Below, piece by piece: positions 1,431 through 21,181 of a DNA stretch of 27,363 bases. A program made the translations under genes and the position numbers. The notes under the pieces were generated by a model. The model was given only the letters and a program-made list of their open reading frames with translations, made no database searches and was not told where the DNA came from. Within the stretch, counting starts at the first letter, position 1. The number at the start of each line of letters is the position of its first letter. Origin of the DNA: Saccoglossus kowalevskii (lineage: Eukaryota; Hemichordata; Enteropneusta; Harrimaniidae); the NCBI RefSeq assembly GCF_000003605.2, contig NW_003128868.1:270033-297395 (forward strand), read 5' to 3'.

Positions 1431-2040
1431 AAAGTTTGAAATAAAAATACACATTACTTCGAAAAAATTTTTGTGTTTTTGACAAAAGCTGGAAATAGCA
1501 TTGAGGTTGTTGAGTTCAACCGTAAGTTGTTGAACAATCTTACTGGTTTTGCAATATATGGATGGTTATGTTTCAGCTGTGTCTGGTTTTATGGTGATAT
1601 CTTTTCATATTCGGATTCCCACCAGATCTCTTAAATCCGTTAGCACCATGTCAACGTGCACTTAGATTTGAACAAACTTAAATACAAGTTTAGATATGTG
1701 AGATTTTCATGGAATACAGATAAGCAGATACTGTTGATTGCTATGTCATGGTTTATTTTTTTTTGTGTACGTCTAAATCGATATAAGTGAGTAATGAAAT
1801 AAACAAATAACAAACAAACAAACACAATATAAACTGTCTTAAAATATCGTTATATAGCGCATTTTGTATTGCCATTCTTCATTTGTAAGACCACTACCAC
1901 TATGTCAGCGTTTTCACTTACGGCTCAAAGCAAGCATTATCTGAAATACAATAATAATTTATTTTATTTTCATTTTTCATCCAATTAAATAGCATTCGTC
2001 GACAGACATGGAAGATAAATAACATGTAAAAGTAACTCAC
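1431..2040. other. AT-rich stretch, no supported gene
   Basis: Lies between the LINE and exon 23. Should hold the next intron and perhaps the terminal exon of the astacin gene. A weak candidate acceptor (GACACAG at about 1576-1582 on minus) would add three codons then TAA, but its pyrimidine tract is poor. Confidence 0.4.
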
Positions 2041-2108
2041 CGTACTCGCATATATATCCCTTCTCTTTAACGCACTTATCATCATCCCATTTCAATCCTC
2101 TTCTATCC
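2041..2108 (-). CDS. Exon 23: end of C-type lectin domain 2
   Basis: Acceptor GTAATAG, donor GTGAGT; phase 2 to phase 1. Encodes DRRGLKWDDDKCVKEKGYIC-EY, closing the CTLD with WDD (WND position) and its last two cysteines. The consensus donor implies at least one more exon; without splicing the frame would stop about 18 codons later. I could not identify the next exon securely. Confidence 0.85.
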
Positions 2109-5100
2109 CTATTACACAAACAACATGAATGATAAAAACACGGTGAGCACACTTGTAATGGTATCGAACTTTATAACACATAAACCCCAAAACGATGCTT
2201 GTCATTTGACTGTTATAGCTTACGATATATAATTAATTATGGTCGTCTCCGTAACACACTAATTAATTTCATCGACATTCAACTTATAAAGTTCTCAATT
2301 CATGTGTAGTGACTTGAATTCTATTCATCTATTTTTTGATCGTAGAGTTGTTATTTTGTTTTGTTTGTATTTGAAATATTTGTAACAAGACGTTTTTGCA
2401 ACTAAAATAGAAAAAAAATCACTAACCACATTTGTACGCAGTCTTGAACGGCAGCTTTCAGTGGTTTACTTGACGGTTGATTTCGTGCCCACTTTGTGAA
2501 ATCACCCGGTAATAGTGGCGTTCCATCTGACCAGACGAATTGCCCTTCAGTAATAATATCATCGAGCCCAAACCAGAATCCTTTCAGTACGTTACTATAT
2601 CCATTATCCATAATAAATCTCCGCACCAGATTCCATATAGCTTTCGTATTCAGTTTAGCTAACCGACCATTATTTGCCTCACAGTTTGCTTTCGCCGTTT
2701 CCCAGTTAGCCTTATCCATATGGACCTCATAGAAATGACAGCCACTGCATACAGTGTCTGGAACTACAGAATACAAAATTATTTAAAATAAAATTGATAA
2801 GATTAGATTACTTGAATGTTCAGTGACTTTTTTTTACAGGGAGTTTTTGGCAAAAACAGGGGAGAGGGCATGAAAAAAATATTTCATGGGCTGTTGTAGT
2901 TGCACTGTATGACCAGTAGAAATATTGCCTTGTAAATGTGTAATATTACCCTCCAACTTGGAGATAACGCGAACTGCAACTTAATACACTGAGTGTGTTC
3001 TATACCGCAATCACAAGCAGGGAAGAAATTCACAAGGTACATTTCAAAGCCAAGTGCACATAAGCCATACATCATCATCACTACATCTGATCTAATACGA
3101 TATAGATGTCACGACATATTGCACGTAAAGTATGTGTTGCTGCTAAATTTAATGCATTTCTTAGGGTACATACCGCTCCCCGGTATATTGGACTTGAACT
3201 CTAATTGTCATCATGAATGCGTGAATGGACACGGCGACTGTCAACGTGTCGTACTACACATAATAAATCGTTTACGTCTGAAGGTATGAAACCGACTATC
3301 GACCCTGGTATCAGGGTATGACGGAAGTGTGAACGAAGTGCGTGTATGAAGTATGGAACGCGCAGATAATGAACGCAACATTTTAGGCAGTAATAACAGT
3401 GTTTGTTTCAATGACTAAACATTACGTCATAACAAGAACTAAAATAACTACAAACGTATTTATAATTGTTAAAGCACTGAAATAACTAACCGACTCAAAA
3501 ATCACGGCGTAATAGCGCTAATATCTGAAAATGTCTGATTGTTGTCCTCATTCCCCCTAGTGCCTGTGTTGTATGGTCTATGTTCTATGATCTCATTTAC
3601 TCAGTCATTCAGTTTATTTATGGAAAGAATTAAATGTAATCTTATGGCTATATTCGGGCCAAACATAATGTAATTGCCGCATACGACTTATTAACCACTT
3701 CCGTGTCACTGAGAATGTTCTAGAACCGTACAGTGTCTGGATGGAATATTCTAGATTTTTTTTAGAAACTGGTTGAATAGGTAATAGAACACTGTATGAG
3801 GCAATAGAAGGTAATGGAACATTCTAGAATTTGTAGTAAGTTCCAGATTCATTATGTATGCTGATGTAATGGTCTATTTATAGACAGTGGTAGTATATAT
3901 AGGGGAGTTGTTCAGCACTGAGGTCAGATCGGAGATCTCGTTGAATTGTATTGGAGTTTAAGTATCTAGTTATTGGAGTAGTGGAGTTTTACCGCGTTAT
4001 TGTACTTGATGTTTGCAGAGTATAATAATACCAGTACCAGTTGAAACCTCATCTGTTGGCTCTGTGTTCGTATTTTATCATCGCCGCCAGGGAAGTCTTT
4101 CTGTTACTGTTGCCATTTTGGTATTTGAACCATCACACCTGTACTATACCAATTACGGTAATATTACGTTGCGTGTGACAGTAATTTAAGGACAAAATAA
4201 TAATTGTTTTCAGTGCGAGAAACAGAAAGGAAATATATATTAAATGTGCCATAAGTGACCCTACAATATTAAATTTATGAAAGTTTTCATTTTTTCCGAT
4301 TTTATGATGAGAAACGAATGGAAATTACCAACAAATTTATTAAATCTGTTAAGGCTCATTTGTAAAACCACGGTGGCTTATGACATAAATTTATATAAAT
4401 CATTTATCAAACATCGAGATATTGTTGCCTTCCCATGTGTATAAGACATGATACAAGTTTGGAAACGTCTCTTGTTTACTACCGTAACAATATGCTACAT
4501 TTTGATTTCACACCACCACTGGCCCGGCAACATTATATCTTCCGAGATGACAAAAAACTGAAATGCGAAAATCGACCAAAAAATGCTGACGTCACACAAT
4601 CACGCAATTGCAAAATGTGAGATGAAGCCAATTTTCAAGGTTGGTAATCTGCCGCCGCGTATCAATGGAAAGCACTAGATCTGCTTCAACCCAGGGGATT
4701 CAATCAATCATTGCCTTGGTAATATAACCAGACTAAATCAAAATATGACCAATTTACAATCCGTGATAAGTCGAACATTGGACATGGATGAAACAAATTT
4801 ATATGCGCGGAGAAATTGAGGTAGGAAGAATTCATACATATTTCACACACGACCTATGAAACTATCCGAAATATTCAAATACATATATTCATAGAATATT
4901 ACTCAAAACCACCAATAATTTGAGATATTATTATTAATAGTCAGCTATAGCTAATCAGTCAGAAGGATCATGCATAGTATGGGAATATTGAAAATTATTA
5001 CGCTGCTTAAAATTATGACACCGAACTGACATGATATACAGGATAAATATGTAATCACTATTATCGAGAAATTATTGGGGTATACCAGTGTTTTACTTAC

Positions 5101-8100
5101 ATTCGCAATTACACGTATCACCATTGGGTAATTGTTCACCAAACTATTAAAGAAAAACATGGATCAATGATCAATGATTATTCACATTTAGGGGTTGATT
5201 TAAAATATCCTGCTTGTGTGCACACACTTGGTATACAGGGCATATCATAAACAAGACATGTGTAAACTGAATGTTGAACGAGATGTGTATACAGACAAAG
5301 CTATACAAACGAATCCCCTCACCAAATATCGTGTTTCCTTCTTGTAACATCCACAACTGGATTGTGGAATACAAATACCCCCTGTGTCGAAGATTAGCCC
5401 ATCTTCACAGAAGCACCCCTCTACACATTGCGTTGTACATTCTCCGACAGGGTTTGGTTCATCGCAGGTTGCAGGGCACGCCGGACCACATGTTTTGTAT
5501 ATCATGTTCACCGGACAGTCAATTTCTAGAAAACAATTGTGCAAAAAAATTATTATTATGTTGTACTAAATGTGCAAGTTCACAAATCAATACAAATTGA
5601 GATTATTATAATAGAGACCTCAAACTATTGTTACTTGTTATGAAATCATAGAAATTAGCATCACCCATCCTATATATTGTATGGAATTAAACATTGTCCA
5701 TTCCTTATACTGTGTAAAAACCATCAAGCATCATTAATCTTCTATACTCTATAATGTATGGAATTTAGCATCGTCCATCCCCTATACTGTATGGAAATTA
5801 GCATAATCCATCTCCTATACTGTATTAAAATTAGCATTGTTCATCCCCTATAGTGTATGGAAATTAGCATCGTTCATTCCCTGTAATGTATGGAATTTAG
5901 CGTCGTCCATCCCCTATACCGTATGGAATTTAACATCGTCCATCCTCCATACTGTATTAAAAATAGCATAATCCATCTCCTGTACTGTAAAGAAATTAGC
6001 ATCCTTCATCCCATATATTGCATGGAATTTAGCATCGTCCATTCCCTATACTGTATTAAAATTAGCATTATCCATCCCCTATACTGTATGGAAATTAGCA
6101 TAATCCATCTCCTATACTGTATTAAAATTAGCATCGTTCATCTCCTATACTGAATGGAAATTAGCATCATCCATCCCCAATATTGCATGGAACTATCTTT
6201 CATCAGATTGAAAATTTGTTCGCCTTACCGCATGCAGTATTATATCGCCAATCGCTTATCACAATTCCTTCATTCTGGCACAGTGCAACATAACTTGCCA
6301 ATACGGCACAACCACCGGCTTCGTCTCCTGGAAGTGAGTCGCATAGATCCATCTTACATGCGTCAATGAACACTTCTGGAGGCAGTGTACCGGCACACTC
6401 TGGTAAGGCTCCTGGGATATTAGTAAAAAAATAATCACATGTTGCATACATATATAATACGTGAGTCGTTGCCTGTGATTAGTACAGTTAAATAAAAGTT
6501 ATAGAAGACGTGGTGCAACGATTTTATTTTACTCAGATGAGAAGTGTTTACCTATCAGTGATGTACATATGTCAAGTGCCTGATCTGCATTTTGCGAGTT
6601 TAAGTCGCAGGGACCAACATCTACAAATCTTCGAGTTGTATCCGTGACATCACTGTAACTGTCGCTTCCGCCTTCCTCTGGTATACACTCTTCAATAGTT
6701 TCCCAGCTGTTGCCGAACACGTAAACGTCAGATGTCTATTAGAATAAATATAAATTTAACCAATCGAGTTAAATGAGATTGAATGTAATTTGGACTAGGG
6801 CAATTGTTTGAATAAATTCGTGGTGCAACAGATAAATTCGGATGAGATAGAAAGGACTGAAATGGCGTAATATTAACTGTCCGCTGCTGCACGTTTTGCG
6901 TGCAGTGTTCACGTATCTTGTGTTACAAAATGTTACGCTACGTGCATCCATGAGAGATACTACTCATTTAAATCCGAAATTTGAACTAGTGCTTGAAATA
7001 TGTGTCTTTTGTAGCGAATCACATAACAATGATATCATCGTTCGCTGATAAAACGTCAAATATTAAACTATAACATTACCAGCTCCATAGCAGACGTGAC
7101 GAAGTCAACATCTGGATTGTTATTAAACCAACCACAGAGACCGCACACTTTTTCAAGATAGTCAGAAACCAGGTCAACTCGTATCACAGACCATCCATCC
7201 CAAGAAACACGAAAACCGTAACCAATATTAACCACCTAAAATAATACATAGAATTATTACATTTTTGTGACACAAAATTATATTCAAATGATGTGATGTC
7301 ATTATATTTGGTGACTTACCAGATACAAACCAACGTCTTTTATGGTTAAGTAATTCATCGTGATTGGTGGATAGACCGTGGTACCATCAATCTTCACTTC
7401 TTTTAATGGAAGTAACTCTATTACCTGTGATATACATATAGGTATATTATATTGTGTTTATAAAGCTCACTACGTAGTTAACTGGTACAACAAAACAATT
7501 AAACAAATAAATAATAACATTTGCAAGGCAGTACATAAATACTGAAACAATGAATATTGTTGTTTTAAAAGGCCATGCCGGGTCATGAAACATGCAAATG
7601 TGTTAATCACTGATTTATGGGAGCGAAAATATCATGCGTTATTGCAGTATTCTAAATGAAAATATCAGTCACGTGATTGTCATGAAAATAGAACCGCTAG
7701 ATAGTGTAAATAAACTTAATTCATAAACCAAACATTTCAAAATACTGTTTCCCAATGTGACCCGATGTTTTTCTATACAACTGTGTACTTCAAATTAAGC
7801 GATTTCCAAGTCGTATAACTCTTGATGTCAACATTTCTATCCTTTGCACCCCGACTGACCCGTTTTAAGGTTTGGTGGTCTGATTTTGAAATAAAAACAA
7901 TCGACTATTTATTTTCATAGAATACAATATTAACACAACATTATTTGAGTTTATACATACCACTGTAAAAATGTAATAAAGGTTCAGATTTGAAGATTTA
8001 AATCGCGTCTAAGTATATTTTATTTTTCGCAGTACAATGTGACAGTACGCAATGTGACTTGAAAACTTGCCACTGTTTCAATGAATATTTTGACAATATA

Positions 8101-11100
8101 ACTACTCAGTCAAGTGTTCAGGAAAAAACATTTAATAACTTACATATGACATATACATTTCTATTAAATTCCGAAACGTGTTTAGCCCACGAATTATTTG
8201 TAATATGTATATACGTGTATGCGAGGTACCAACTTTTGATGAAAACCAAGGTCCGGGAGATCAATTCGAAAACAAGAAAAAAAAACTTCTTGAAACAAAT
8301 TTACAAGCGAGAACCGCATCTTCTTACAAATGCACTAGTTATAAATCATGATAAAATGGACGTATTATTGCCACATATTACACAATATATAAACACAGCA
8401 AAATTATGACCCATTTATTTCTTGAAAATGCCAAAATCCTTTGCCCATTTTGAAACTTGCATAACTTAAAGACCCCTATGATTGCCGCGCAGGTAAGTTG
8501 TACCAGTAACCTCCCACGCTTCCAATAGGCGTTTACAATGTCGACAACGTCCATGTCACCAGTGCGTTATAAATAAATCCACGCATCAAAACTTTCATGC
8601 CGATAGTCTTGAACAACTCTTGATGTAACGCGACATTTTATCTACATTATTTTACAAACATAAATCGGTCTGTTTATGTGAGAGGTATAGACACATTATT
8701 AAAAGTGATTCCAACAAATCAAATCATATGAAATACTAAGATGCGCTTTGCGAGATGAAAACACACCTTATATATTGCTACAATTGTCAATCAAACGGTC
8801 AAAACAATTTCCTCCAGTGATCTGAGTGTCGATGAACCGGCATTCTATATTCATTCACTGTCACAAATGTCAAACAAACACATCATTTTCGCAATGTAGT
8901 AAATTGTATGGATGATGAATGTTGACAATATCGGAACAATTTTCAAAAACTGTACCCTGATTTTTTCAGAGCTATTGCAATAATACAGTTACCTTATATA
9001 GTACACGCGTGTCACACGCAACGTAATATTACCGTAATTGGTATAGTACAGGTGTGATGGTTCAAATACCAAAATGGCAACTGGTACTGGTATTATTATA
9101 CTCTGCAAACATCAAGTACAATAACGCTGTAAAACTCCACTACTCCAATAACTAGATACTTAAACTCCAATACAATTCAACGAGATCTCCGATCTGATCT
9201 CAGTGCTGAACAACTCCCCTATATATACCCTCACTGTCTATAAATAGACCATTACATCAGAATACATAATGAGTCTGGAACTTACTACAAATTTCTAGAA
9301 TGTTCCATTACCTTCTATTGCCTCCTACAGTGTTCTATTACCTATTCAACCAGTTTCTAAAAATTCCACCCAGACACAGTACAGTTCTAGAACATTCTCA
9401 GTCACACGGAAGTGGTAAACAAGTCGTATGCGACAACGCGCAAGATATACTACACAACAATCAGAATTTATTAAGAGGATGTCGAAAAGCATTGTTTTAT
9501 TATTTCGTACAGCGACTTACCATATCATAAACTTCAATTCGTGCTTGTTTAGTGTACGTCACAGTTGACCCAGGCGAAGTTAAATCGTTGTCCACGATCA
9601 CCGCAAATTTTGATTGATCGTTACATCCATCGGTCATCAAAATGTATTCACATTCACCTTGGTAATCATAGTAGGTGCCATCGAATGTTTTGTAGTGAGG
9701 ATCACCAGAGCCATAGCAGTTTGCGGTTTCTTGAAGGTGAAACGGATTTGAAACAGAAGTTATAATGACAGTCGTTTTAACTTGAAATACTATGTAATGT
9801 TGCTCTAGTTTTCATAGCTCACTGTCGAAATGCTGATCGTTCAGAGAGGAATATGGCTTTGGGATATCTTTACTTTATCAAAAAATGGCTATCATCAAAA
9901 GTGTTTATTATTATTACATTATTAAGTGTATTACATGAAAATGAAGTAAACATAACGTGGGATCACGCAATGAAAGAAACATTATATCTGCTCTGCCGTC
10001 CTCTATTGTTCTGTGATACCAACTATGCATATGCTGATATATAATTAGCACACTTATTGATAGGAGTAGCCCAGGGAAATAAAATAAAATATTCCTGCTC
10101 TCGCATGGGGTTTCCAGGGAAGAGAGATAGTATGACAGAAATTAAATACTGGTAGCAAAACTAAAGAAGAATATACGTGTAGCTCTGTGTGTGTGTGTGA
10201 GTGTGCGTGTGTGTGTGTGTGTGTGAGTGGATGGGATAAAGTGGGCCGTTTGGGCAGACAGTTGATGCTGGCAAGACCTGGTAACCCGAAAGTAAACACG
10301 GGAATCAATTTTTGAAAAATATCATCATGTAAAGAATTATTCTAAATCTATTTCCACGATTTTCAAATCTTCATTGAAAGTACTGTAATGCTATTTAACT
10401 TAATATCTCCAGTTCGTATGTGCTATCACCTTCGTTCGTCTTTTCTGGGTTTCCTGTGATCTACATATCAAATATATGGATTGTATAATAACCTCAAATT
10501 TTCAATCGGAAAAGTCAATAGGTGAACAGTACGCATTTGAATTAGTATTAGCATTGTATAATGCGTGATGATCTCAAGTCTGATTAACGAACAAAACATT
10601 TTACCTGCACAATCATCTATATACTCAGGACAACAATCCCCCCATGAGTGGCATAAGTTATCACAGTAACATAAACGCTCTTCAATTACTCCACCGCAAA
10701 CGTCTCCACAGTAACCTGTGCATAAAATATAAGCATAAGTATGTTTCAGGAAATTATTATTATATATTAGACATATTACTGTCCAAAATAACACATCATC
10801 CCGGCGATCATACGATCAGGTTTCAAGACTGGGATATGTTTTTAATTATTTGTATAATTTTTGGACAATACTAAGGTGCTGGAAAGAGCTTTTGTGAATG
10901 CGATGTGCAAGAAACATTGGCGACAATTTAGAGTATTCATTGGTCCATGATTGTCGATAAGTATTTTTTAGATATTTTACCCATTTGTCCCTACCTGTAT
11001 ACTTATTAGGTAAGATATCTGTTCAATTCATTCTCGCAGTAAATTATGCATTTCCAAAATTCAAACGCAATGAATTTGAGAACAATTGACCAGGTTTAGA

Positions 11101-14100
11101 AACAAATTGTATAATTCAAAACGTGTTATTAGCATTATTATCGAGGTATCGAACACACACAAACAATTGCTGAGAATTCGATACAAATTACTTACGTATG
11201 GGGCAGCATACCGATATTGGGTCATCGGTGTCACCACTCACATGCGTGCAGGAATACCCACCAGGACAGGAATCAAGGAACGGTACAACGGGCCCTCCAT
11301 CGGGAACTTCACAAAATACCATATCACCTTCGAACTCGTAAGGGTTCCCGAAAGGACAAGTGAAAGCTGCAACGTACAATTGATTTAAATCAGTGAGGCT
11401 GTGAAAATGTAGCATACATAGTAGTATTCGATTGATGAAATACTTGCAAAAAATAAAATTTAATGCGAGCAAACTTCTCCTCACTTTCACATCCATAGAA
11501 TGTTCACAGTTAAAGCATTAGTTTGCGATAAAGACGCAATTTCAAAGAAAAGTAATTAAATATGCACAAACATAACCTCATAACATATATTTAAATTTGT
11601 TTTGTCGATGCATCACAGCATGTGTCATATGCATATGACCATGCACCCCTACATTTTCTGACATTGTGAATACTATTCGAAAAAAAGTACATTATAGTTT
11701 GTGTCAAAATAACATATGGTATTATTGTACAAGTTATCATAATAATTTCATTATATGACATACTTTGTAATTGATAGACGTCGATAGAGTTTTCGGTTCC
11801 AAGTCCTTCAACACACTCATCGGACGAGCCAGCGGATGTGAGCAGTCCGTAGTCGGAAAAGGCATAACATGCTCCACCATCACCAAGCGCGAAATATAGT
11901 TCTTCCACGTGTGTAGCAGCACTAGCACATTTCTATTAAACAACAATACATTATGCAGACCATAAACAAGTCTGTATAACTACAAATTGCATCCTAGATT
12001 TGAAAGACATACAGAATATTGCGTACATACCAAGGCCTTGTCGGTTCGTGTTGCATATTCTCCATCTAGATGAGGGTTACCTGTGCCTTCCAATGATGGT
12101 AGTGATTCTGGGAGTATCCAGCATCCGTCATATATGTAACCTAAAAAATGTCGTTACACGTGTTCGATCATACAGTTGTATTATATCACCGAAGCCAAAC
12201 TATGGATGGGTTAAGAACTTTTTTGTGTGTCCATCTTCAAATTAAGAGCATTAAATGCGTTCTATCAACAGTTCTGCACGAAATTCGAAAATTAAGTGCA
12301 ATAAGCTATAAAAATACTGGCTTATTTATGACGCAAAATTTCAAAAATATTGTCTTTGAGCGTTACTTACCGGTAAACTGTGGACAACCAACTATCATAC
12401 ATGTACGGGTGTCTATGTTAGAACCCTCACATGACTCATCCCCGCACGTTCTGTACCTATCTTGAGATCCGCCTCCACATGTTTGTGTACAGTCTGACCA
12501 GGCACTCCATTCTGACCATCCTGGTCCTGAACAAGTAAAACACAATGTTACTGTTGCTTAAACATTAAACTTGCAAAGGGGCATCCATATATTGATCTTG
12601 CAATCGCTGTAAACATATGTGCTACTCACCATGTCACACTATTATACAAAATGGAAATATCATATTCAATGAGCAGGGACAAGTATAGGAAAGTAAGGGA
12701 TATAGCTATGAGATAAAATAATTTATGACGGTGAAATAAAAATCATTCCTTTTGTTGTACAGTCATGTGGCTCTTATTGTCAAATCCAAAGCAATGACAA
12801 TAACAATGTGCTTTGTCGTATTCATATTAGAATGTAATGTTGCTGGTAATTTAACAGACATACCTTCATAACAGCTGTATATGCCATTAACCTCCACTAT
12901 GTCAGTCAGACTAAGACCATTAATTTGACCAACTTCTCCGTCATAGTCCTGAAGCATAACCATCGTTGGTAATGCAGGATCTATGGCGAAGTCGTATAGA
13001 CCATAATGCATAAGTGAACCATAATCGTACATAGTGGATTGGAGATTCATGTTATACTCCTTAGCAAAGTTGCCCTCAGTCCCTGTTAGTGAAGCACATA
13101 TCACATAATTAATTCTGAATCAGGATATTGCTCATGTGTACATATGTGTATTGCGGGATGGTTACGTACCAGACTTTATATTGTCCCATTTGATTTCAAT
13201 GTAGTCATCTCGATCGTAACGCGATTGTTCGTGGAAAAATCCCAAGGCGTGAAGAACTTCGTGTTGTATAATTCCTTCCCACCAGCACGACCCGCTGTTT
13301 CCGTCGTAAAGTGACAACTCCTGCTTTCCACCAATTTTCCCAATATATGACCAACATCTTTCATAAGATTAACGATACAAAGCTATTATTTCCACACCCT
13401 CAGCTAATTTTATCATGTAAAAGCGATATATACCACTCGATTCTACCGATTAACCAAGTCGAATTGTTATGATACCAAATAATTATCTTACCCGCCGCCA
13501 TTGAACATACTTATATAATTGTCTGCCACGCCTTCTGTGAATGTTAAACATGTTTCTGCTTCAAGGTCGTCCAATGCATCCCGTATGATTCCTCTCCCGA
13601 ATTCGCCTGTGCAAATAAAAATTTTAAATTGAATTACACCATGGATTTTACGATTCTTTATAACATATATATTATTCATCAATTATAAAGTTCAATTCAC
13701 GTGGTGGAAATGATAATAATTATCGTTACAGTGGCATTTGCCTTCAGTAAAAATCAACACCACCGATCTTTTGAAGTAATAAAGGACAAACATAACAAAG
13801 GTTAAGGTTACTAGGGGCTATCAGAAAATGGATGGTTGTTCAAAGTCAGAATGTTCGTTGAAAATATCCGTTGTTTGCTATGGACGTGGTTGATACGCCC
13901 ACAAGAGAGTCGTCAAATCTGTTTTCGAGATACTAGTACATTGTTTTGGTTTAAATATTTTGTTTAATTATTTTTTGGATTTTAATGATATTTAATCAAC
14001 TCGTGCAAGTTTTTGTCAAACATAAAATCAGCAAATGTCCTCAACGTTTTTATTCAAAGTCGGTTTGAACATAACACACAAAGAGTTACGTTAGCTTGAT

Positions 14101-17100
14101 TCAAAATGGCTGAACGGTGACCACGTTTTATTTCTATATGTCCATGTCCATTTCTCGGACAATTCACCATTTTTTTATTGTGTACATACATGATGATGTT
14201 TATGTTATTTGTATCTAGGCAAGGCTCAGAACTATATATCTTGCGTGGTATATCTATAAGTCAATTTTCCTGTAGCTACTCACTAATTGGGCTGCCTTCA
14301 CTGGTAGTTTCTTCATCAAATACGTAATGAACAACATTACCAGGCCAATACAAGTAGTCATTAGTTGTGATGCCTCTTTTTCTGAAAGCAGAATAAATTG
14401 TATTAGATTGTGTTGTGTAGACTTCAAACTCACAGACGCATTCTCTGCAAACACATATTAGCCATTCTGTCACATGTTATGTATCTGTAGTGTGCACGGA
14501 ACATTATAAATTATAGTTACTCATGATTGGACAAGATGGGCATTCCTGCACTATGTCTTCTTTCTTGTTCTTCTGTCAGCTTTATATCTCCTTGAAATAA
14601 ATCTGTAAAAAAAAAGATGTTACAACCTATAATATACATCCGCGTTTTTTTGATTGCATGATTTTAATTATTGTGTCTTTCAAATGCTGGTTACGTTGCT
14701 TCCATTGTTACATTGAATCTGCGTCCGATATCTCACTCTATCAGGCAGTTGTCTCAAAAATTGTCCTGATCTGAATTTATTAATAATCTGATGTATTCGT
14801 TTTTAGTTGATTGCACGTTATATATATTGATTAGATGCGAAATAAACGCTTGTAAGACATTTTTGGTCAGCAATTGAAATTAATAACTATCAGAATGAGA
14901 ATATTTTGAAATCAAATGTCTCCATCAAATTTACCTATACTCCATTCATTATTATATGTAGTTCCATAAAGAATACTCATTATTTACTCACTCAAATCGC
15001 GATTGATTCGTAGAATATTATCAACGGATGGGTTTCTATGGGTCCGTCTAGTAGATTTGGCTTTATTGGTTTTTCTTTTTACTATATGTAACGCATCGTC
15101 TGTAAAAAATCACAATATGTATTTCATTAACAGTTTCTTACGTATATGCATGCTTTTTGATATAAATAGTTGAATATATGACAAGGCGCCGCACTACTGA
15201 AAGAAACGAGAAACGTATCTGCATTATTCTAGCTATCCCAAAGAAGACTGAATGAAATAATGTGCGTGCACACAGAACCAAAGTGACTAGATGCACAACA
15301 CCAATCTTTGACATCACAAGTAACCTATCCTGTAGTGACTGATGTCTGGGGCATGTACTTGCTCACCAGCTGTGACATATGCATGGAGTTATTATACGTA
15401 CAGGCAATTTATGAACAATTATTCTGTCTTACCTGATTCTGTAACTTCACAGAGAAAGGATTCAGCATTTCGGCAATCCGAAAACTGCCATTCAAAGACA
15501 TGTTCATTGTTACCTACACCCATTACACACTCAGCGTCGCTAGATGGTGATCGCGCCCAGGGATATGCTTTGTTCTCTTTGTATGGTATGGTTGTTTCTA
15601 CCCAGAGTGGTCTCCCGTTACCGTGTGGTTTACGTAATCCAATCCACAGTTTGGCACCACTGTAAGTATATGAATATTACATAATTATAAAAACACCAAC
15701 ATATAAGCTTCTTAAAAGAAGGGGTCATAAATTACGTCTTTGCTAAAATATTATTAAATGAAAACATCACAAAATCCAACAGATAAAATGTCTGATTAAC
15801 ACAAGCTATCCTGGAAATTCAGTGTAATGTCTCATATTGCAATGATACTGCCAATTAATACCGAATGACCAACAAGGACTCAACATTGCATAATATTTAG
15901 TAGGGAAACTGTTATTGTGTTTGAATGAATCAGTAATGGAAAGGTTAACTAATACCAAATCTGATTCTATACCGTTAGAACAAAACTACGCAATAAAGCT
16001 AGTACAATCAGCATTACTGGTGTAGGTAACAGTATATAATCATGGGCACAACAACAGAATAAATATTAAAGCCGCAAGCGGCGTCACCGGGGCCCAAGCT
16101 GATAAGATTCTGTTTCATAATTAATGAGGTCAACATGTTAGACAATCAGATACGAGTAACTTGTATTATCAGTAACATGAGGTCGAAATGAAGTTGGTAC
16201 CATGTATTTACCTGGTTTGGTTATCGAAATATGGTTTTCAGGATATATAATGAGCCATGTTCTTATGCACAATAATGAGATTACATAATCATATATAGCC
16301 AATTCTAATGTTAGTTGCATCTTTCATTCAATGTCTTCATAATGACACTAGTTACATGTCCTGCTCTGCGACAGTGTTTTAGATATGACTGCTTTGCATA
16401 TTAATGAGTTTACATGACCATATATGGTCNNNNNNNNNNNNNNNNNNNNNNNNNNNNNNNNNNNNNNNNNNNNNNNNNNNNNNNNNNNNNNNNNNNNNNN
16501 NNNNNNNNNNNNNNNNNNNNNNNNNNNNNNNNNNNNNNNNNNNNNNNNNNNNNNNNNNNNNNNNNNNNNNNNNNNNNNNNNNNNNNNNNNNNNNNNNNNN
16601 NNNNNNNNNNNNNNNNNNNNNNNNNNNNNNNNNNNNNNNNNNNNNNNNNNNNNNNNNNNNNNNNNNNNNNNNNNNNNNNNNNNNNNNNNNNNNNNNNNNN
16701 NNNNNNNNNNNNNNNNNNNNNNNNNNNNNNNNNNNNNNNNNNNNNNNNNNNNNNNNNNNNNNNNNNNNNNNNNNNNNNNNNNNNNNNNNNNNNNNNNNNN
16801 NNNNNNNNNNNNNNNNNNNNNNNNNNNNNNNNNNNNNNNNNNNNNNNNNNNNNNNNNNNNNNNNNNNNNNNNNNNNNNNNNNNNNNNNNNNNNNNNNNNN
16901 NNNNNNNNNNNNNNNNNNNNNNNNNNNNNNNNNNNNNNNNNNNNNNNNNNNNNNNNNNNNNNNNNNNNNNNNNNNNNNNNNNNNNNNNNNNNNNNNNNNN
17001 NNNNNNNNNNNNNNNNNNNNNNNNNNNNNNNNNNNNNNNNNNNNNNNNNNNNNNNNNNNNNNNNNNNNNNNNNNNNNNNNNNNNNNNNNNNNNNNNNNNN

Positions 17101-17359
17101 NNNGTTTTTATTGCTGATATCTATTACACATGAGTTGTACTATATACCATAAAAAATCTAGACGCCTAGACCCTCAGAAAGTGGTCAAACAGTCACTTCC
17201 GGTTTTATTTCAATCCAATATGGCTGCCAAACTAATTGACCAATCGAAATTCTGAAAGCATGTTGCACCAGTTCACATTAGGGACTATCAGTATAGAGCA
17301 TTATCAGATCATTCTGTTCAGCGGTTTTCTCAAACGGCTTGACGAAAAAAGTTACGGAA

Positions 17360-17390
<31 letters not shown>

Positions 17391-20300
17391 GAAAGAAAAA
17401 ACCGGACAATAAGAATAGGGGCCACGCCTTACAGGCTTGGGCCCCTAATAAAACCCCTGAAGGACATGTCGAACATTGAGCAAAGGTGCAGGAATATTAT
17501 GGATGATAATTGAACCTACACCGAGAGGCATGTTTCATCAGGAGGAAAGAAAGTCAAATACACAACAAAATGAAAAGCCTGCAAATCGACTTTTAATTTG
17601 AAATCTACCATTATCAGTAAAACACAACTCCCTCAATCTGATTCCCTAACCAATAAAACCTTTAAATGGTGTACTCCTTCAATTACACTAAGTAAACATT
17701 TAAAGACTACCACTACACTAGATGCCACTACCCTAATAAAACAACCTTCAAATTGCAAAAAATGTTCCAATACTTTCATCACTAGAAACAATGTGCAGTC
17801 TCGAAGCCCGAGGAAATCAAGCGAACATTAGGTGAGTGCGCCCTCTGTCGGGAACGGCGAAATATATACAAGATAATCCTAACTGTGAAAAGTCCCTTTG
17901 GGTGAGTAAACCCTCCAATAGCATTGTACTTTTCATGGTTGCCACGCCGCCAAAACAAATACCCAAGTCTCTTGAATAACTCATGAACAAATAAACAATA
18001 TAGATATTTCTCATGACATCAAAATAAAAATCAATAATTTCGGGTGGCACATTGGAGGTAAATGCTGGAATGTTGAATGCCTACATCCATATTTTAGAAA
18101 CCACGCCAACTTTTGAGAAACCACGCCCAAATTGTAACTCGATGTTCATTTAACAGTTCACAGAACTTCGAGTTACGGGCAATATTAATTTGTAATTTAA
18201 CGTCCACATTTAGTAACTCGAAGTTCAGTTAAGAGTTAACCGAATGTTGAGTTAAGGGCAACATAGACTTGTGAACTGAAATAAGCCATGATCCGCTCAC
18301 TGCGAGATCTCGCGTGGCCAAGCTTTACGTCTTTAGCAACCAGTTCCATGTGACACCATTGTGTCAACACAGGTGGCGCTATTCAGCACAGACCTGTGTA
18401 TTATGACGCATAACTAGCCTCTGAAGGCTAAATATCCATCCGCTACCATTTTTCTCAGCGTTTCTGCCGTGGAACTATATAAAAGTATTTTCTTGTTTTG
18501 AACACATCCTCCCCCGATTTTTAGCAAGATTCAATCTTTAATGAGTTGATCAATTAAAATAACACACAACACTCATCAGAATATCTTATTTTAACATATT
18601 AACATTATAATGCATATAAATTGGGAGGTCAAAGGTCTAATTTTTCTCAATATTGCATTGACACCCCTGATTGCCACAAAGTGGAAATAGTTCCGACCAC
18701 TTTTCCCATAATTCCACGCGCGGTATGTATCAGATCGGTTGGCTTGCGGCGATCTGCGTGTCAATGATGTGACACCGGTCAAGCTTTCCCCTAGAGACGG
18801 TGGTAGCGCCGTTGTTCACTCTGCCGTATACCGTTCACACGACAATATCGACTGTACAAAAACGCTATACGGTGAATGCAAGAGCGATTCTCGATTCATC
18901 TAAAGAATTAGACGAATGGTAGGTATTTTACACGTTTCCTGGGAAATGTGATCGGTGGATCAGTGCCTGTTCTCGTGCCGATGACTTTGAAAGACACCGC
19001 ACCCCAGTGTCCTCACTCAGAAAATCGCAATGACTATGCGAAAGATAGGGGGAGATAGTGCGTCTTTGAGGGAAATAAAATTACGAAATTAATTGCGTTG
19101 TCATTGAATGAAGAAACATAAATGGTCGCAAAAAAATATGCACATTTTATTACAATATTAATTCCGTACTACCCGAATTTACGAGGTTAAAAATATTAGA
19201 GTCTGTTGGAACACATTCGAAGTCAAGATATGCATCATTATCTTCATTGTCAAATGTTTTGGATCGTACGCAAAATCTCGATGAAAAACACTTTACGCCA
19301 TGACATATTCTTGAACGATTTGACCTAATGGGTCACAATATCCACGCTGTATCATATAAAAGCGGTTACCAGTATTCGTTAAGCAATGATCATAGACCAA
19401 GTTAGACAGTCAAATTAAAAGCATTTCGAAGGGGGTGGGCGCTTAGCCGAGCATGCACTTTATTGGAGGCAATGTTCCGAAATCGTCACATCTAGACCCA
19501 ATACCAGCCACTGCAAGGGGTGAGAATTCGAAGTTGAAACACCAAATTTTCGTAAAAAGCCCTAGAGCCGCGGCTCTGCGTGTTTGTCGACATCATCTAA
19601 ACGTAAAAAGAACGATAAACGTGTCGCAAGCGTGGAAATAAGGTCAACAAAAAACGCACAACGTTATGAAAGGACGCCATTTTGAACCAAAGCTTGACCT
19701 GTGTCACGTGGCTGACAACAGTTGCCAGGGTATCTCGCGAGATCTCGCAGTGAGCGGAATATCCATTATTTGTGAATATTTCTAATGTTTAAGGAAGTTC
19801 ACAATGTAGAACAAGTATTTATGTTCAAGTTTAAATAAACAACTTCGCTTGGGCGAAGATGGTCGTTTATGGCGCATTATCGAAAAAAGTTAAATATTGA
19901 GAAAACCAGTATAGACCTTTATTATTGTCAATAAAGTGATGCATGCCTCAAAACTGCTATAGCAGGCAATAGTAGACGTTAGTCTTGACGTCCGTAATTG
20001 TTGGCCACCTGACTGAATACTCGGAGATATATATACATAATTACAGACAAACATTATATACGTAAATTAGAACACTGAACACGGGATTGGAGTCCGTGAT
20101 CCCGGCAAACACAGAGTAGACAATAAACTCGCTCCCTGCCTCGCCACACTGACTGTCATGAAATATGCGTAATTGCATACGCTACGATCATTACGTCAGA
20201 CTGTTTCTGTGCATGTGGTGGAAAATAAAAACCTCATTGACTGCACATTGTATATAACTACGTGGTTTACATTTGGCTAGAGGGCGTCAATTATTATGTT

Positions 20301-21181
20301 CCGCATTTTCACTTTGGGTGTTTTTAGGCTTATTTATGACATGCAGCATGTCGAGCAAAGGTATTCACGAAAGTATGTTCTGTATTGTAGGATTTGTGTG
20401 CTTATATCCGTGTTACTAAACCACGTGAATTATACTTTATTTCCGAGAAATGTTAAAGCATTTATACTGATATAGACACATTTTCTAACTATACGAATTC
20501 CTTGCGCAACAACTTTCAATTTTGTGCGCAATTACCGTGCACACAGTAATCGTACATACAATCGTCATTGATGTTTATACTTGGTCAATGTAAAACATTG
20601 TTATGTCAAACTATGTGCAATGCTAATCGTATTTACCTTTTTGCAAGTACGTTGACCGCATCACGGACGTGTTCACTCTCAAGAACAGCCAAGTCACCAC
20701 CAAGTTCTTGACACTTGCTCCGGGCTTCTGACCATCCCAGCGAATTGTCTGGGACAGTGTAACATTTATCTGGTAATTTGACGTCACAGTTTCTGACCGC
20801 CACAGTGGATCCTAGACGGAGGATATAGAATAGATGTTGGGTTGGTGTCGGGTGTCACTATACAAAGCAGACACCTTTGTGGAGTGATTTATGTCAGTCA
20901 TTACATTACAGTTAACAAAAAATAAGAGGTTAATTTGAGAGTATGCTGTACGTGTATGACGGGAAAGATGATATTATGACAGTTAACATTAGTGCGCAGT
21001 GTGCCTGATTATCGCTGTTTATAATAAAAAATAGTACCCAGTTTCAGTGTAATGCGTCTCGAATTGCATACCTTATTTTCACGATTGATTTGATGAAACT
21101 GGTAAATAATAAACACATTAAACATTTCTTACCTAACAGAGCTCCTAAGAACATAAAACATATCTTCCACAATGCTTCCAT
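2041..21181 (-). CDS. Multidomain secreted astacin metalloprotease with two C-type lectin domains and VWD-C8-TIL tail (23 exons seen, 3' end unresolved)
   Basis: Coding exons on the minus strand, in transcript order: 21181-21133, 20811-20637, 15659-15433, 15099-14992, 14602-14521, 14381-14284, 13606-13492, 13357-13170, 13082-12864, 12526-12371, 12140-12031, 11932-11764, 11366-11196, 10715-10605, 9729-9521, 7424-7320, 7235-7080, 6735-6552, 6411-6229, 5525-5323, 5143-5101, 2763-2427, 2108-2041. All junctions are AG/GT and phases match throughout (3466 nt, 1155 residues so far). Domain order: signal peptide 1-16; CTLD 25-147; propeptide with F-Q-G-D192; astacin about 217-420 with zinc ligands H317, H321, H327, catalytic E318 and Met-turn M372/Y374; TSP1 424-472; GCW module 473-565; lustrin-like 566-622; somatomedin B 623-659; VWD about 660-860; C8 about 860-938; TIL 940-1006; CTLD 1026-1155. 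The catalytic residues are intact, so it should be an active secreted zymogen protease. Substrate is unknown. The biological role (matrix, mucus or immune processing) is inference only. Confidence 0.9.
2427..2763 (-). CDS. Exon 22: C-type lectin domain 2, main part
   Basis: Acceptor TTCTGTAG, donor GTTAGT; phase 1 to phase 2. Encodes CSGCHFYEVHMDKANWETAK, C-EANNGRLAKLN, GFWFGLDD, FVWSDGTPL, KWARNQPSS and DCVQMW. Clear long-form CTLD. The calcium-site tripeptide reads QPS rather than EPN or QPD, so its sugar specificity cannot be predicted. Confidence 0.93.
2764..3669. other. Intron 21, left part: no supported gene
   Basis: AT-rich. A plus-strand frame around 3170-3289 with a few clustered Cys/His codons is noted but has no domain match that I recognise and no consistent neighbours. 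Confidence 0.5.
3675..4180 (+). mobile_element. Solo LTR, copy A
   Basis: 506 bp, starts TGCCGCATACG and ends GTGTGACA, flanked by a perfect 5-bp target-site duplication GTAAT (3670-3674 and 4181-4185). Contains a TATA-like run (TATATATAGGGG near 3893). Homologous along its whole length, in inverted orientation, to 9010-9435. No gag or pol nearby, so it is a solo LTR. Sits in intron 21, antisense to the host gene. Confidence 0.85.
4186..5100. other. Intron 21, right part: nothing recognised
   Basis: AT-rich intron between solo LTR A and exon 21. No coding pattern, tandem repeat or RNA gene is visible. Confidence 0.5.
5101..5143 (-). CDS. Exon 21: short TILa-like tail
   Basis: 43-nt micro-exon, phase 0 to phase 1, acceptor TTTAATAG and donor GTAAGT. 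Encodes FGEQLPNGDTCNCE, resembling the C-terminal G-e-x-x-x-x-x-C-x-C tail (TILa/VWC-like) after a TIL domain. Assigned by phase continuity and the CxC motif. Confidence 0.8.
5323..5525 (-). CDS. Exon 20: TIL (trypsin-inhibitor-like) domain
   Basis: Acceptor TTTCTAG, donor GTGAGG; phase 1 to phase 0. Encodes CPVNMIYKTCGPACPATC then ECTTQCVEGCFCEDGLIF and a final C-x(n)-SSCGC. Ten cysteines match the TIL consensus. In VWF/mucin-like proteins TIL follows VWD-C8, as here. Confidence 0.95.
5646..6194. repeat. 33-bp minisatellite, about 16 units
   Basis: Tandem units of consensus ATGGAATTTAGCATCGTCC followed by ATCCCCTATACTGT, alternating with an ATTAAAATTAGCAT variant. Units near 5757-6194 are regular; those at 5646-5756 are more diverged. 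Located in intron 19, ending about 35 bp from the donor of exon 19. The 33-bp period keeps a plus-strand frame open, which is not evidence of coding. Confidence 0.9.
6229..6411 (-). CDS. Exon 19: C8 domain
   Basis: Acceptor ATCCCAG, donor GTAAGG; phase 1 to phase 1. Encodes PEVFIDACKMDLCDS, GGCAVLASYVALCQ and DWRYNTACG. With exon 18 all eight cysteines of the C8 domain are present in the usual order. Confidence 0.94.
6552..6735 (-). CDS. Exon 18: VWD-C8 linker and start of C8
   Basis: Acceptor CTAATAG, donor GTAAAC; phase 0 to phase 1. Encodes VFGNSWET (typical VWD-to-C8 join), an acidic/Ser-rich stretch and GPCDLNSQNADQALDICTSL, holding the first two C8 cysteines. Confidence 0.92.
7080..7235 (-). 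CDS. Exon 17: VWD domain, end
   Basis: 52 codons, phase 0 to phase 0. Encodes VVNIGYGFRVSWDGWSVIRV then KVCGLCGWFNNNPDVDF. CGLCG is the conserved VWD CxxC-type motif; the usual NYNG after it is WFNN here. Domain closes with a ...DDF-like segment. Confidence 0.93.
7320..7424 (-). CDS. Exon 16: VWD domain, middle
   Basis: Exactly 35 codons, phase 0 to phase 0, acceptor ATCACAG and donor GTAAGT. Encodes V-I-E-L-L-P-L-K-EVKIDG and a following strand, the hydrophobic beta-rich centre of a VWD domain. No cysteine. Confidence 0.9.
7425..9004. other. Intron 15, left part: no gene seen
   Basis: AT-rich intronic sequence. A 116-codon plus-strand frame at 8059-8409 has low-complexity AT-driven composition and no recognisable domain, so it is not called. 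Confidence 0.6.
9010..9435 (-). mobile_element. Solo LTR, copy B (inverted relative to copy A)
   Basis: 426 bp; on minus begins TGTCGCATACG and ends GTGTGACA. Flanked by a perfect 5-bp duplication ACGCG (9005-9009 and 9436-9440). Lacks a 69-bp block present in copy A (4044-4112), which in A is bounded by GTTG direct repeats. Sits in intron 15 in the same orientation as the host gene. Confidence 0.87.
9521..9729 (-). CDS. Exon 15: von Willebrand factor D domain, first part
   Basis: Acceptor TTCAAG, donor GTAAGT; phase 1 to phase 0. Encodes CYGSGDPHYKTFDGTYYDY and GECEYILM, the hallmark VWD opening (GDPHYxTFDG-x-x-YxfxG-x-C-x-Y). Ends in a strand that runs directly into exon 16. Confidence 0.95.
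10185..10228. repeat. (GT)n microsatellite
   Basis: About 44 bp of GT dinucleotides with a few GA and GC interruptions, in intron 14. Confidence 0.9.
10605..10715 (-). CDS. Exon 14: somatomedin B domain
   Basis: Single-exon module, phase 1 to phase 1. Encodes YCGDVCGGVIEERLCYCDN followed by LCHSWGDCCPEYIDDC. All eight cysteines are in the canonical C-C-CxC-C-CC-C order. In other proteins SMB mediates protein-protein contact (vitronectin, ENPPs). Confidence 0.95.
11196..11366 (-). CDS. Exon 13: lustrin-type Cys-rich module
   Basis: Acceptor TTGCAG, donor GTAAGT; phase 1 to phase 1. Encodes CPFGNPYEFEGDMVFCEVP, CPGGYSCTHV and VCCP. The CP-x-G-x-PY...C...CPxGYxC...CC pattern with six cysteines matches the lustrin-like Cys-rich repeats of secreted invertebrate proteins. 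Confidence 0.88.
11764..11932 (-). CDS. Exon 12: GCW Cys-module, second half
   Basis: Acceptor TTTAATAG, donor GTATGT; phase 0 to phase 1. Encodes KCASAATHVEELYFALGDGG, then ACYAF, DECVEGLG and DVYQL. The order C..A...YFALgdGG.CY...C..G.G....VY.l completes the module begun in exon 11. Best described as WSC/PAN-like of unknown ligand. Confidence 0.85.
12031..12140 (-). CDS. Exon 11: GCW Cys-module, first half
   Basis: Acceptor TTTTTTAG, donor GTATGT; phase 1 to phase 0. Encodes GYIYDGCWILPESLPSLEG followed by a hydrophilic stretch. The GCW start resembles WSC-like modules seen in secreted invertebrate proteins, but I cannot assign a family with confidence. Confidence 0.85.
12371..12526 (-). 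CDS. Exon 10: thrombospondin type 1 repeat
   Basis: Single-exon module, phase 1 to phase 1. Encodes WSEWSAWSDCTQTCGGG, then R-Y-R-T-C and further cysteines, six in all. W424, W427 and W430 form the WxxWxxW motif known to be C-mannosylated, and the SDCTQTCG segment fits the CxxTC motif for O-fucosylation. Both modifications are predictions here. Confidence 0.95.
12864..13082 (-). CDS. Exon 9: astacin C-terminal part with Met-turn
   Basis: Acceptor AACAG, donor GTATGT; phase 1 to phase 1. Encodes YDYGSLMHYG (Met-turn, with M372 and the zinc-coordinating Y374 of the tyrosine switch), then GQINGLSLTDIVEVNGIYSC, the usual end of the astacin domain including the final conserved cysteine. Confidence 0.94.
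13170..13357 (-). CDS. Exon 8: astacin catalytic exon
   Basis: Acceptor TGAAAG, donor GTACGT; phase 2 to phase 1. Encodes CWSYIGKIGG, then SCWWEGIIQ and HEVLHALGFFHEQSRYDRD. H317, H321 and H327 ligate zinc, E318 is the general base. No substitution is seen in the 18-residue signature, so catalysis should be preserved. A TAA visible in another frame is not in the coding frame. Confidence 0.95.
13492..13606 (-). CDS. Exon 7: astacin domain, first conserved cysteine
   Basis: Acceptor TGCACAG, donor GTAAG; phase 1 to phase 2. Encodes the helix IIRDALDDLEAETCLTF and NYISMFNGGG, matching the family's I-x-x-A-M/L-x-x-ie-x-x-TC-i-x-F segment. The cysteine belongs to the first of the two conserved astacin disulfides. 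Confidence 0.92.
14284..14381 (-). CDS. Exon 6: mature astacin N-terminus
   Basis: Acceptor TTTCAG, donor GTGAGT; phase 2 to phase 1. Encodes KRGITTNDYLYWPGN and VVHYVFD. The WP-x-x-x-V-x-Y-x-F/I pattern is the beginning of the mature astacin fold; K-R216 is a plausible activation cleavage site. Confidence 0.92.
14521..14602 (-). CDS. Exon 5: astacin propeptide with aspartate switch
   Basis: Acceptor after a run of T, donor GTAACT; phase 1 to phase 2. Encodes LFQGDIKLTEEQ followed by basic residues. FxGD is the known astacin aspartate-switch motif: D192 would ligate the active-site zinc and keep the zymogen latent. Confidence 0.9.
14992..15099 (-). CDS. Exon 4: basic linker, start of astacin propeptide
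   Basis: Acceptor TTTACAG, donor GTGAG; phase 1 to phase 1. Encodes a Lys/Arg-rich stretch with KRK and RR pairs (possible proprotein-convertase sites) and ends IL-R-INRDL, leading into the propeptide. No cysteine. Cleavage here could release the N-terminal lectin domain; that is inference. Confidence 0.85.
15433..15659 (-). CDS. Exon 3: C-terminal half of C-type lectin domain 1
   Basis: Acceptor TTACAG, donor GTAAG; enters phase 2, leaves phase 1. Carries the CTLD core WIGLRK, a PLWVET strand, the conserved cysteines in DAECV, SDC and FLCE. The EPN/QPD tripeptide and WND motif of calcium-dependent sugar binding are not present (RSPSS and WQFSD stand in their places), so calcium-dependent glycan binding is doubtful. 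Confidence 0.9.
16113..16429. repeat. Diverged direct repeats running into the assembly gap
   Basis: Three segments start similarly: CATAATTAATGAGG (about 16116), CACAATAATGAGATTACATA (about 16268) and CATATTAATGAGTTTACATG (about 16397). The last two continue with CATATATAGCC / CATATATGGTC about 129 bp apart, the second ending at the gap. Suggests a tandem repeat of about 130-150 bp. Confidence 0.4.
16430..17103. other. Assembly gap (674 N)
   Basis: Run of N inside the 5-kb intron 2. Open frames across it are artefacts. Confidence 1.
17160..17455. repeat. Probable interspersed repeat with (GAAA)n tail
   Basis: A stretch ending in a (GAAA)n microsatellite (about 17356-17400) followed by a GC-rich hairpin, GGGGCCACGCC near 17418 and GGCTTGGGCCCC near 17434. 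A related GGGGCCCAAGC motif sits on the other side of the gap near 16091. Looks like a SINE or non-autonomous element 3' end, partly hidden by the gap. Confidence 0.45.
18135..18285. repeat. Two-copy tandem repeat of about 80 bp
   Basis: GTAACTCGATGTTCATTTAA (from 18135) and GTAACTCGAAGTTCAGTTAA (from about 18214) begin two diverged units, each running through a GAGTTA-x-GGGCAA segment. Lies immediately left of the inverted repeat starting at 18292. Confidence 0.6.
18292..19758. mobile_element. Candidate non-autonomous DNA transposon bounded by 23-bp inverted repeats
   Basis: 18292-18314 and 19736-19758 are perfect inverted repeats (TCCGCTCACTGCGAGATCT + CGCG), enclosing 1.42 kb. Just inside, related AAGCTT/CACGTGACAC blocks recur in inverted orientation. 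No transposase frame is visible and the flanks show no clear target-site duplication. Confidence 0.5.
20637..20811 (-). CDS. Exon 2: N-terminal half of C-type lectin domain 1
   Basis: Acceptor CTAG, donor GTAAAT; enters phase 1, leaves phase 2. Encodes the first CTLD half: two N-terminal cysteines (C25, C33), W-x-x-A-x-x-x-C, then LGGDLAVLES, the classic long-form CTLD helix/strand signature. It is separated from its second half by a 4977-bp intron. Confidence 0.9.
21133..21181 (-). CDS. Exon 1: start codon and signal peptide
   Basis: Starts at ATG (21181-21179 on minus) and encodes MEALWKICFMFLGALLG, a typical short hydrophobic signal peptide. Donor GTAAG follows at 21132; the exon ends in phase 1. 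A strong acceptor (pyrimidine tract, then CGCAG) lies 2 nt upstream of the ATG, so the physical exon begins at 21183 and transcription must start in an upstream non-coding exon. Confidence 0.85.

Follow-up and report, generated by a model that had tools for sequence, protein, structure and literature searches.

Results

Gene structure and domain composition

The stretch analyzed here, referred to as the window, is 27,363 nucleotides of the hemichordate Saccoglossus kowalevskii (RefSeq assembly GCF_000003605.2, contig NW_003128868.1, forward-strand positions 270,033 to 297,395; C2076:270033-297395 in the 572-Mb genome searched). Its minus strand encodes a C-type lectin domain, a propeptide, an astacin protease domain, a thrombospondin type 1 (TSP1) domain, a GCW module, a lustrin-type cysteine-rich module, a somatomedin B (SMB) domain, a VWD-C8-TIL unit, and a second C-type lectin domain, very probably as a single gene. 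The gene model and all readings were derived from the DNA sequence alone, by splice signals, profile matches, and comparison with paralogs.

The initial annotation had proposed this module order over 23 exons, and the order was borne out: with 22 GT-AG introns removed, all compatible in phase, the 23 exons form one continuous reading frame. Even when each open frame was given its best-scoring donor and acceptor with phase ignored, 18 of the 22 junctions were phase-compatible, about one-third being expected by chance; this count is rough, the open frames having been picked by hand and the frame of one short exon taken from the model. What had to be corrected was the identity of the GCW module, which is WSC-like, the standing of the lustrin module, which falls below the profile cutoff in the window, and the 3' end, where one exon had been missed. 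Position 2041, proposed as the gene end, is a splice donor, and exon 24 follows from an acceptor 100 bases on. The final model has 24 exons and encodes 1162 amino acids, the last exon ending at 1918. Exon 24 is short, so its support consists of splice signals and analogy with the paralogs C48 and C3976 (described below), in which the last lectin exon likewise ends with a phase-1 donor. A stop at 1985 was ruled out as the gene end by a donor at that place in two paralogs, and AATAAA at 1968/1963 was rejected as a polyadenylation signal, both occurrences lying inside the last intron of the 24-exon model.

The domain reading held in a profile search of the spliced protein, one of the checks proposed with the initial annotation. 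Pfam recovered Astacin (PF01400; E = 1.5e-49, 168.7 bits, profile positions 2-188 of 189), VWD (2.3e-31), Lectin_C in two stretches (3.5e-29), C8 (1.8e-13), TIL (3e-13), and TSP_1 (4.6e-9), with VWD, C8, and TIL in that order. With the two halves of the first lectin domain joined, one Lectin_C profile was matched over positions 3-106 of 107. SMB (PF01033) was absent from the whole-protein scan and reached 26.9 bits as a segment against a cutoff of 23.1, with eight cysteines present. Lustrin (PF14625) scored 21.6 bits in the window copy against a cutoff of 27, and 28.7 bits, above the cutoff, in the paralog P2. The GCW module of the window had no Pfam match, and comparison of GCW with PDB gave no match at E up to 1. 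The GCW module of C48 (270035-270537, two exon peptides joined) matched WSC (PF01822) at 4.8e-5 and 23.9 bits, the cutoff being 27.8. This suggests that the module is a divergent WSC domain, and we call it WSC-like, membership being below the cutoff. NCBIfam matches to LegP and polycystin were far below cutoff and are accounted for by the astacin and lectin domains. Scans of IMG/VR with the astacin exon and the VWD exon returned 10 and 1 pattern matches, respectively, and no confirmed relative.

Between TIL and the C-terminal lectin domain there is only the short piece FGEQLPNGDTCNCE, at the position of the E domain in a full D assembly. Long mucin repeats rich in Ser and Thr, as in gel-forming mucins, were not found in the spliced protein: the highest combined Ser and Thr share in any 60-residue segment was 23%. 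Separately, the spliced protein holds no N-glycosylation sequon past the signal peptide; shuffles of the 23-exon model had 6.5 on average and none in a fraction of 0.0006. Sequons are present in the paralog C2244.

Table 1. Exons of the 24-exon gene model, with positions in the window.
Feature	Positions	Strand	Basis
Exon 1: start codon and signal peptide (MEALWKICFMFLGALLG...), phase-1 donor	21133..21181	-	retrieved by automatic signal-peptide-exon scan
Exon 2: N-terminal C-type lectin domain, first half	20637..20811	-	splice joining, Pfam
Exon 3: N-terminal C-type lectin domain, second half	15433..15659	-	splice joining, Pfam segment
Exon 4: propeptide	14992..15099	-	splice joining, paralog exon models
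Exon 5: propeptide, putative aspartate-switch motif FQGDI (FQGD codons 14597-14586)	14521..14602	-	motif definition in PMC9848320
Exon 6: astacin domain start, predicted KR activation site (codons 14380-14375)	14284..14381	-	
Exon 7: astacin domain	13492..13606	-	Pfam
Exon 8: astacin domain, zinc/catalytic motif HEVLHALGFFHEQSR (codons 13263-13219)	13170..13357	-	
Exon 9: astacin domain, Met-turn SLMHY	12864..13082	-	Pfam, motif reading
Exon 10: thrombospondin type 1 domain	12371..12526	-	Pfam
Exon 11: GCW (WSC-like) module, first part	12031..12140	-	
Exon 12: GCW (WSC-like) module, second part	11764..11932	-	
Exon 13: lustrin-type cysteine-rich module	11196..11366	-	
Exon 14: somatomedin B domain, 8 cysteines	10605..10715	-	Pfam segment
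Exon 15: VWD domain, predicted GDPH self-cleavage motif (codons 9706-9695)	9521..9729	-	Pfam, motif reading
Exon 16: VWD domain	7320..7424	-	Pfam
Exon 17: VWD domain, CGLC motif	7080..7235	-	Pfam, motif reading
Exon 18: VWD-C8 link and C8 start	6552..6735	-	Pfam
Exon 19: C8 domain	6229..6411	-	Pfam
Exon 20: TIL domain	5323..5525	-	Pfam
Exon 21: short post-TIL link (FGEQLPNGDTCNCE)	5101..5143	-	splice joining, paralog exon models
Exon 22: C-terminal C-type lectin domain	2427..2763	-	Pfam
Exon 23: C-terminal C-type lectin domain end, phase-1 donor at 2041	2041..2108	-	paralog comparison
Exon 24: final codons (DNACFEP) and stop	1918..1940	-	comparison with paralogs C48 and C3976

Paralogs and sequence constraint

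Astacin matches fell at 51 places genome-wide, many being exons of one gene, and GCW-lustrin-SMB matches adjoin several of them. The architecture is not a one-off: the full order recurs at C3976 (471.7-479.9 kb; lustrin match weak, E = 0.013) and C2244 (8.8-17.8 kb; of the first lectin domain, the second half alone was found), and a partial order at C48 and P2. C48 (265.6-273 kb) has the same order from astacin on, with lustrin at E = 0.015, or 5.2e-6 with a profile; the stretch upstream is mostly N, and the first lectin domain there is unread, not absent. P2 is a tandem neighbor on the strand of the window gene (C2076:248-259 kb) and carries lectin, propeptide, astacin, lustrin, SMB, VWD, C8, TIL, link, and the start of the C-terminal lectin domain, which runs into N. 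It is read as lacking TSP1 and GCW because its astacin and lustrin exons are only 114 bases apart. The order at C3976, C2244, C48, and P2 came from searches unconstrained in order or phase. In the joined exon peptides of C2244 and C3976, astacin, VWD, C8, TIL, TSP1, and two lectin stretches exceeded the Pfam cutoff, which SMB reached as a segment only. A further copy, P3 (C2076:222-227 kb, plus strand), reads from the second lectin half through lustrin, the stretch beyond being nearly all N and unread.

Other loci differ in composition. C1345 (328-338 kb) has astacin followed by tandemly repeated TSP1-GCW-lustrin units and represents a second architecture of the family. C3249 has three TSP1-GCW-lustrin units followed by TIL and lectin; VWD and C8 were unmatched in the readable stretch between the units and TIL, the upstream part being N. 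C4257 (78-83.6 kb) carries the modules from TSP1 through GCW, lustrin, SMB, VWD, and C8 to TIL; astacin was unmatched in the 8 kb upstream, and no second lectin was found up to 87 kb. Because the profile search partly re-finds the copies from which its profiles were built, only C1345, C3249, and C4257 were new there. C3981, C4071, and C2793 hold partial module sets by match position only; these three, a second C4257 set, most of C1345, and the remaining VWD matches of the genome were left unread. The TSP1-WSC-lustrin cassette, amplified in one copy, partly missing in another, and flanked by phase-1 introns in the window, is a clear case of exon shuffling.

For the comparison of sequences, exon models were forced to the phase and order of the window, which left 22 testable exons. 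We recovered 16 of these in P2, 11 in P3, 16 in C48, 20 in C3976, and 20 in C2244, and 39 of the 83 recovered exons had exactly the length of the window exon. Identity to the window was 0.68 (P2), 0.61 (C2244), 0.52 (C48), and 0.51 (C3976) for astacin, and 0.73, 0.55, 0.48, and 0.45, respectively, for VWD-C8-TIL. The two halves rank alike, as expected if they travel together. Between P2 and the window, the ratio of nonsynonymous to synonymous substitution rates (dN/dS) was 0.26 overall, 0.16 for astacin (with dS of 1.5, near saturation), and 0.28 for VWD-C8-TIL; both halves are under purifying selection in this comparison. For P3 it was 0.54 overall, 0.58 for astacin, and 0.27 for the lectin half. 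There is no ratio for C48, C3976, and C2244 because dS was infinite or >3 in every comparison.

Protease and VWD motifs

FQGD at amino acid 189, followed by I, matches FxGDI, the sole motif reported as common to the prodomains of animal astacins (PMC9848320). KRG at the start of the astacin domain was kept in all six copies. The zinc motif HExxHxxGxxHE lies at amino acid 317 and the Met-turn SLMHY at 370, and the former was kept in 5 of the 6 modelled copies. The top solved match of the astacin part was 3lqb (LOC792177 protein), which we take to be a hatching enzyme, and the second was 3vtg, High choriolytic enzyme 1.

In the VWD domain, all six family copies read (window, four paralogs, and C4257) have GDPH, with Gln 14 and Cys 17 residues after the Asp. 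A Cys five residues before the GDPH Asp aligns with a Cys of FCGBP, and the same Cys is present in the five other copies. By their table coordinates, the solved FCGBP chains 8r0t_B, 8r0t_C, and 8qci_B start at the Pro of the aligned GDPH. In FCGBP, mutation of the Asp or the His abolishes cleavage and mutation of the Gln partly does so, and the first strand stays attached after cleavage via cysteines (PMC10880436). Given the conserved GDPH and the Cys in register, a two-chain, disulfide-linked protease is expected; the mature protein is probably made of two such chains.

Relation to known proteins

C-type lectin, SMB, and TSP appear as partner domains of astacins in a figure legend of a 2023 review (PMC9848320), so these parts of the novelty claimed by the initial annotation were already catalogued; the VWD-C8-TIL unit is unlisted there. 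The novelty thus lies in the full order and the D assembly. The VWF entry of the review's legend, PS50234, is presumably the type A domain. No paper describing an astacin with VWD-C8-TIL was found, in a search of literature, accessible in part, that lacked most subscription journals; astacins were mentioned elsewhere in a reference title only, with ShK, or with SRCR (PMC12197698, PMC11857728, PMC10855680).

The protein resembles the astacins (M12A) in its signal peptide, FxGDI prodomain, HExxHxxGxxHE and SxMHY motifs, and extra TSP, C-type lectin, and SMB modules; it differs in the VWD-C8-TIL unit and in the lectin domains at its two ends, VWD, C8, and TIL being absent from that legend of PMC9848320. 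With the D assemblies of FCGBP, gel-forming mucins, and VWF it shares the VWD-C8-TIL order and the best solved matches, and with FCGBP the GDPH, Gln, and Cys residues, but here a single D assembly without mucin repeats is joined to a protease. Macrostomum ap1/ap2 and Asterias Sfp1 likewise combine VWD-C8-TIL (or VWD-C8) with C-type lectin or TSP1, whereas their order is different, they have EGF or discoidin modules, and no protease domain is mentioned in the accessible text (PMC8621496, PMC7037938). The Asterias Astacin-like Sfp is a secreted astacin tied to adhesive material; it consists of astacin and CUB, with VWD-C8-TIL unmentioned in the part available (PMC9382459). Cnidarian TSR-astacin proteins have astacin with TSP1, and the domains listed for them are VWA, trypsin, ShK, and immunoglobulin but not VWD-C8-TIL (PMC5446238, accessible part). 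In the tunicate house, astacin-type and VWD-lectin proteins occur as separate proteins (PMC3390340), whereas in this gene both kinds are joined in one chain.

Other elements in the window

A 674-base run of N (16430-17103) lies within the intron between the two halves of the first lectin domain. Two solo long terminal repeat (LTR)-like copies in introns (3675-4180 and 9010-9435), in opposite orientation and with arms 90-100% similar, are each flanked by a 5-base duplication (ATTAC and ACGCG). The C8-TIL intron contains a 33-base tandem repeat (5749-6192) of 13.5 copies with a 132-base higher-order period. Downstream of the gene, at ~44-400 on the minus strand, there is a remnant of an endonuclease of the long interspersed nuclear element (LINE) type (Exo_endo_phos_2, 7.5e-5, 23 bits against a cutoff of 27.4). 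Apart from this sub-cutoff match, Pfam found nothing in minus-strand frames, masked at stops, of the two flanks and the three largest introns. Scans of the window for tRNA genes and for Rfam families (gathering cutoff) were also empty.

Discussion

The window could hold two neighboring genes, one for lectin-astacin-TSP1 through SMB and one for VWD-C8-TIL-lectin, misread as one. The acceptor at 9729, which joins SMB to VWD and thereby both halves, scores among the weaker acceptors; the joining intron also holds an AATAAA at 9909, and the series at C4257 has no astacin match. However, a scan for an ATG with a hydrophobic signal-like start and an in-phase donor, run with 40 random sequences per intron (means 0 to 0.30), retrieved the true exon 1 and, with the N run left aside, no signal-peptide exon within any of the 22 introns of the 23-exon model. 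The VWD exon has no in-frame ATG from the upstream stop to the acceptor. The full order is kept at C3976 and C2244, the order from astacin on at C48, and both halves in P2, each on a single strand within ~7-11 kb. On the scan, the absent ATG, and this recurring order we rejected two separate genes, which we consider very improbable. Phase-1 introns between modules are the usual mark of exon shuffling. The introns between modules are all phase 1 (9 of 9), compared with 4 of the 13 other introns (hypergeometric probability 0.0014), when the prodomain-astacin (phase 2), VWD-C8 (phase 0), and TIL-link (phase 0) introns are classed as within-unit; counted as boundaries, they oppose the pattern. That the assembly placed exons of unrelated genes together is a possibility close to negligible. 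The 674-base gap does fall inside the gene, but the module order recurs on the separate contigs C3976, C2244, and C48, and the intron that holds the gap is short in P2 (~1.2 kb) and C3976 (~0.5 kb), with the lectin halves adjacent there. Rather than a misjoin, the architecture represents a family that recurs in this genome.

We favor, with a probability of roughly 0.6, a single 24-exon gene for a secreted astacin zymogen that is fused to a mucin-type D assembly and works in mucus, matrix, or adhesive. Besides the acceptor at 9729, several observations weigh against it. FxGD was kept in 4 of the 5 copies in which the exon was found, C3976 reading FEAD, and the VWD domain of C3976 has SGLCG in place of CGLCG. 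Some other VWD domains are cleaved without the disulfide that holds the first strand in FCGBP (PMC10880436), and MUC2 has GDPH and yet was uncleaved in Chinese hamster ovary (CHO) cells without acid (PMC10082768). In P3, HQ replaces HE in the zinc motif and the catalytic Glu is lost, and this copy is likely a pseudoenzyme or decaying. Since C4257 has no astacin in the 8 kb read, the scaffold may exist without a protease. The hallmark of sugar-binding C-type lectins is an EPN or QPD motif together with WND. The second lectin domain of the window reads QPS and WDD, and the first has neither motif (C48 and C3976 read QPNN); sugar binding is doubtful because neither domain of the window keeps a full EPN/QPD motif. 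The C4257 series, the lost Glu of P3, and its astacin dN/dS of 0.58 would also fit a mainly structural protein of adhesive or mucus, comparable to ap1/ap2 of flatworms or Sfp1 of the sea star, in which the astacin domain only matures the protein itself or its partners. We regard this as unlikely, given the catalytic motifs kept in 5 of the 6 modelled copies and the dN/dS of 0.16 for the astacin part of P2. An enzyme of de-adhesion or hatching, which the scaffold would direct to the glue or egg coat of the animal itself so that the protease dissolves this material, seems to us a rather remote alternative. It would fit High choriolytic enzyme 1 as the second-best solved astacin match, the resemblance of the scaffold half to glue proteins (PMC8621496, PMC7037938), and the de-adhesive gland-cell astacin with CUB of Asterias rubens, proposed to release the footprint (PMC9382459), but the architecture is unlike that of the sea star enzyme.

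For the favored reading of a matrix-directed zymogen, we propose the following working model. The FQGDI aspartate switch would keep the protease latent after removal of the signal peptide, and a dibasic-site protease would activate astacin by cutting after KR (R216). In the secretory pathway, the VWD domain would cleave itself between Asp669 and Pro670, leaving a protease chain (lectin, astacin, TSP1, WSC-like, lustrin, and SMB) held by disulfide to a scaffold chain (VWD-C8-TIL-lectin). Through the lectin, TSP1, WSC-like, and SMB modules and those of the D assembly, the active protease may then be positioned in mucus, a secreted adhesive, or the extracellular matrix and would process matrix or mucus proteins there. 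The modules agree with the proposal of the initial annotation, a protease built into a mucus- or matrix-type scaffold.

More speculatively, and with a low probability in our estimate, the gene and its paralogs may form an undescribed family of self-cleaving, two-chain, matrix-anchored proteases. A reactive anhydride able to bond other molecules covalently has been described for FCGBP, with the reservation that later mass spectrometry failed to confirm covalent FCGBP-MUC2 binding (PMC9354016). In such a family, the GDPH anhydride could bond the protease chain to the matrix or mucus that it digests, and amplification of the TSP1-WSC-lustrin cassette and swapping of modules could have retargeted the enzyme in this lineage.

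The gene unites in one chain astacin proteases and mucin/VWF-type D assemblies, which are usually studied apart, and the predicted sites of zymogen activation and of Asp-Pro self-cleavage are both conserved in this chain. The functional purpose of GDPH cleavage has not yet been revealed, according to PMC10880436. If self-cleavage does hold the protease to its substrate matrix, this family would offer a testable purpose for it.
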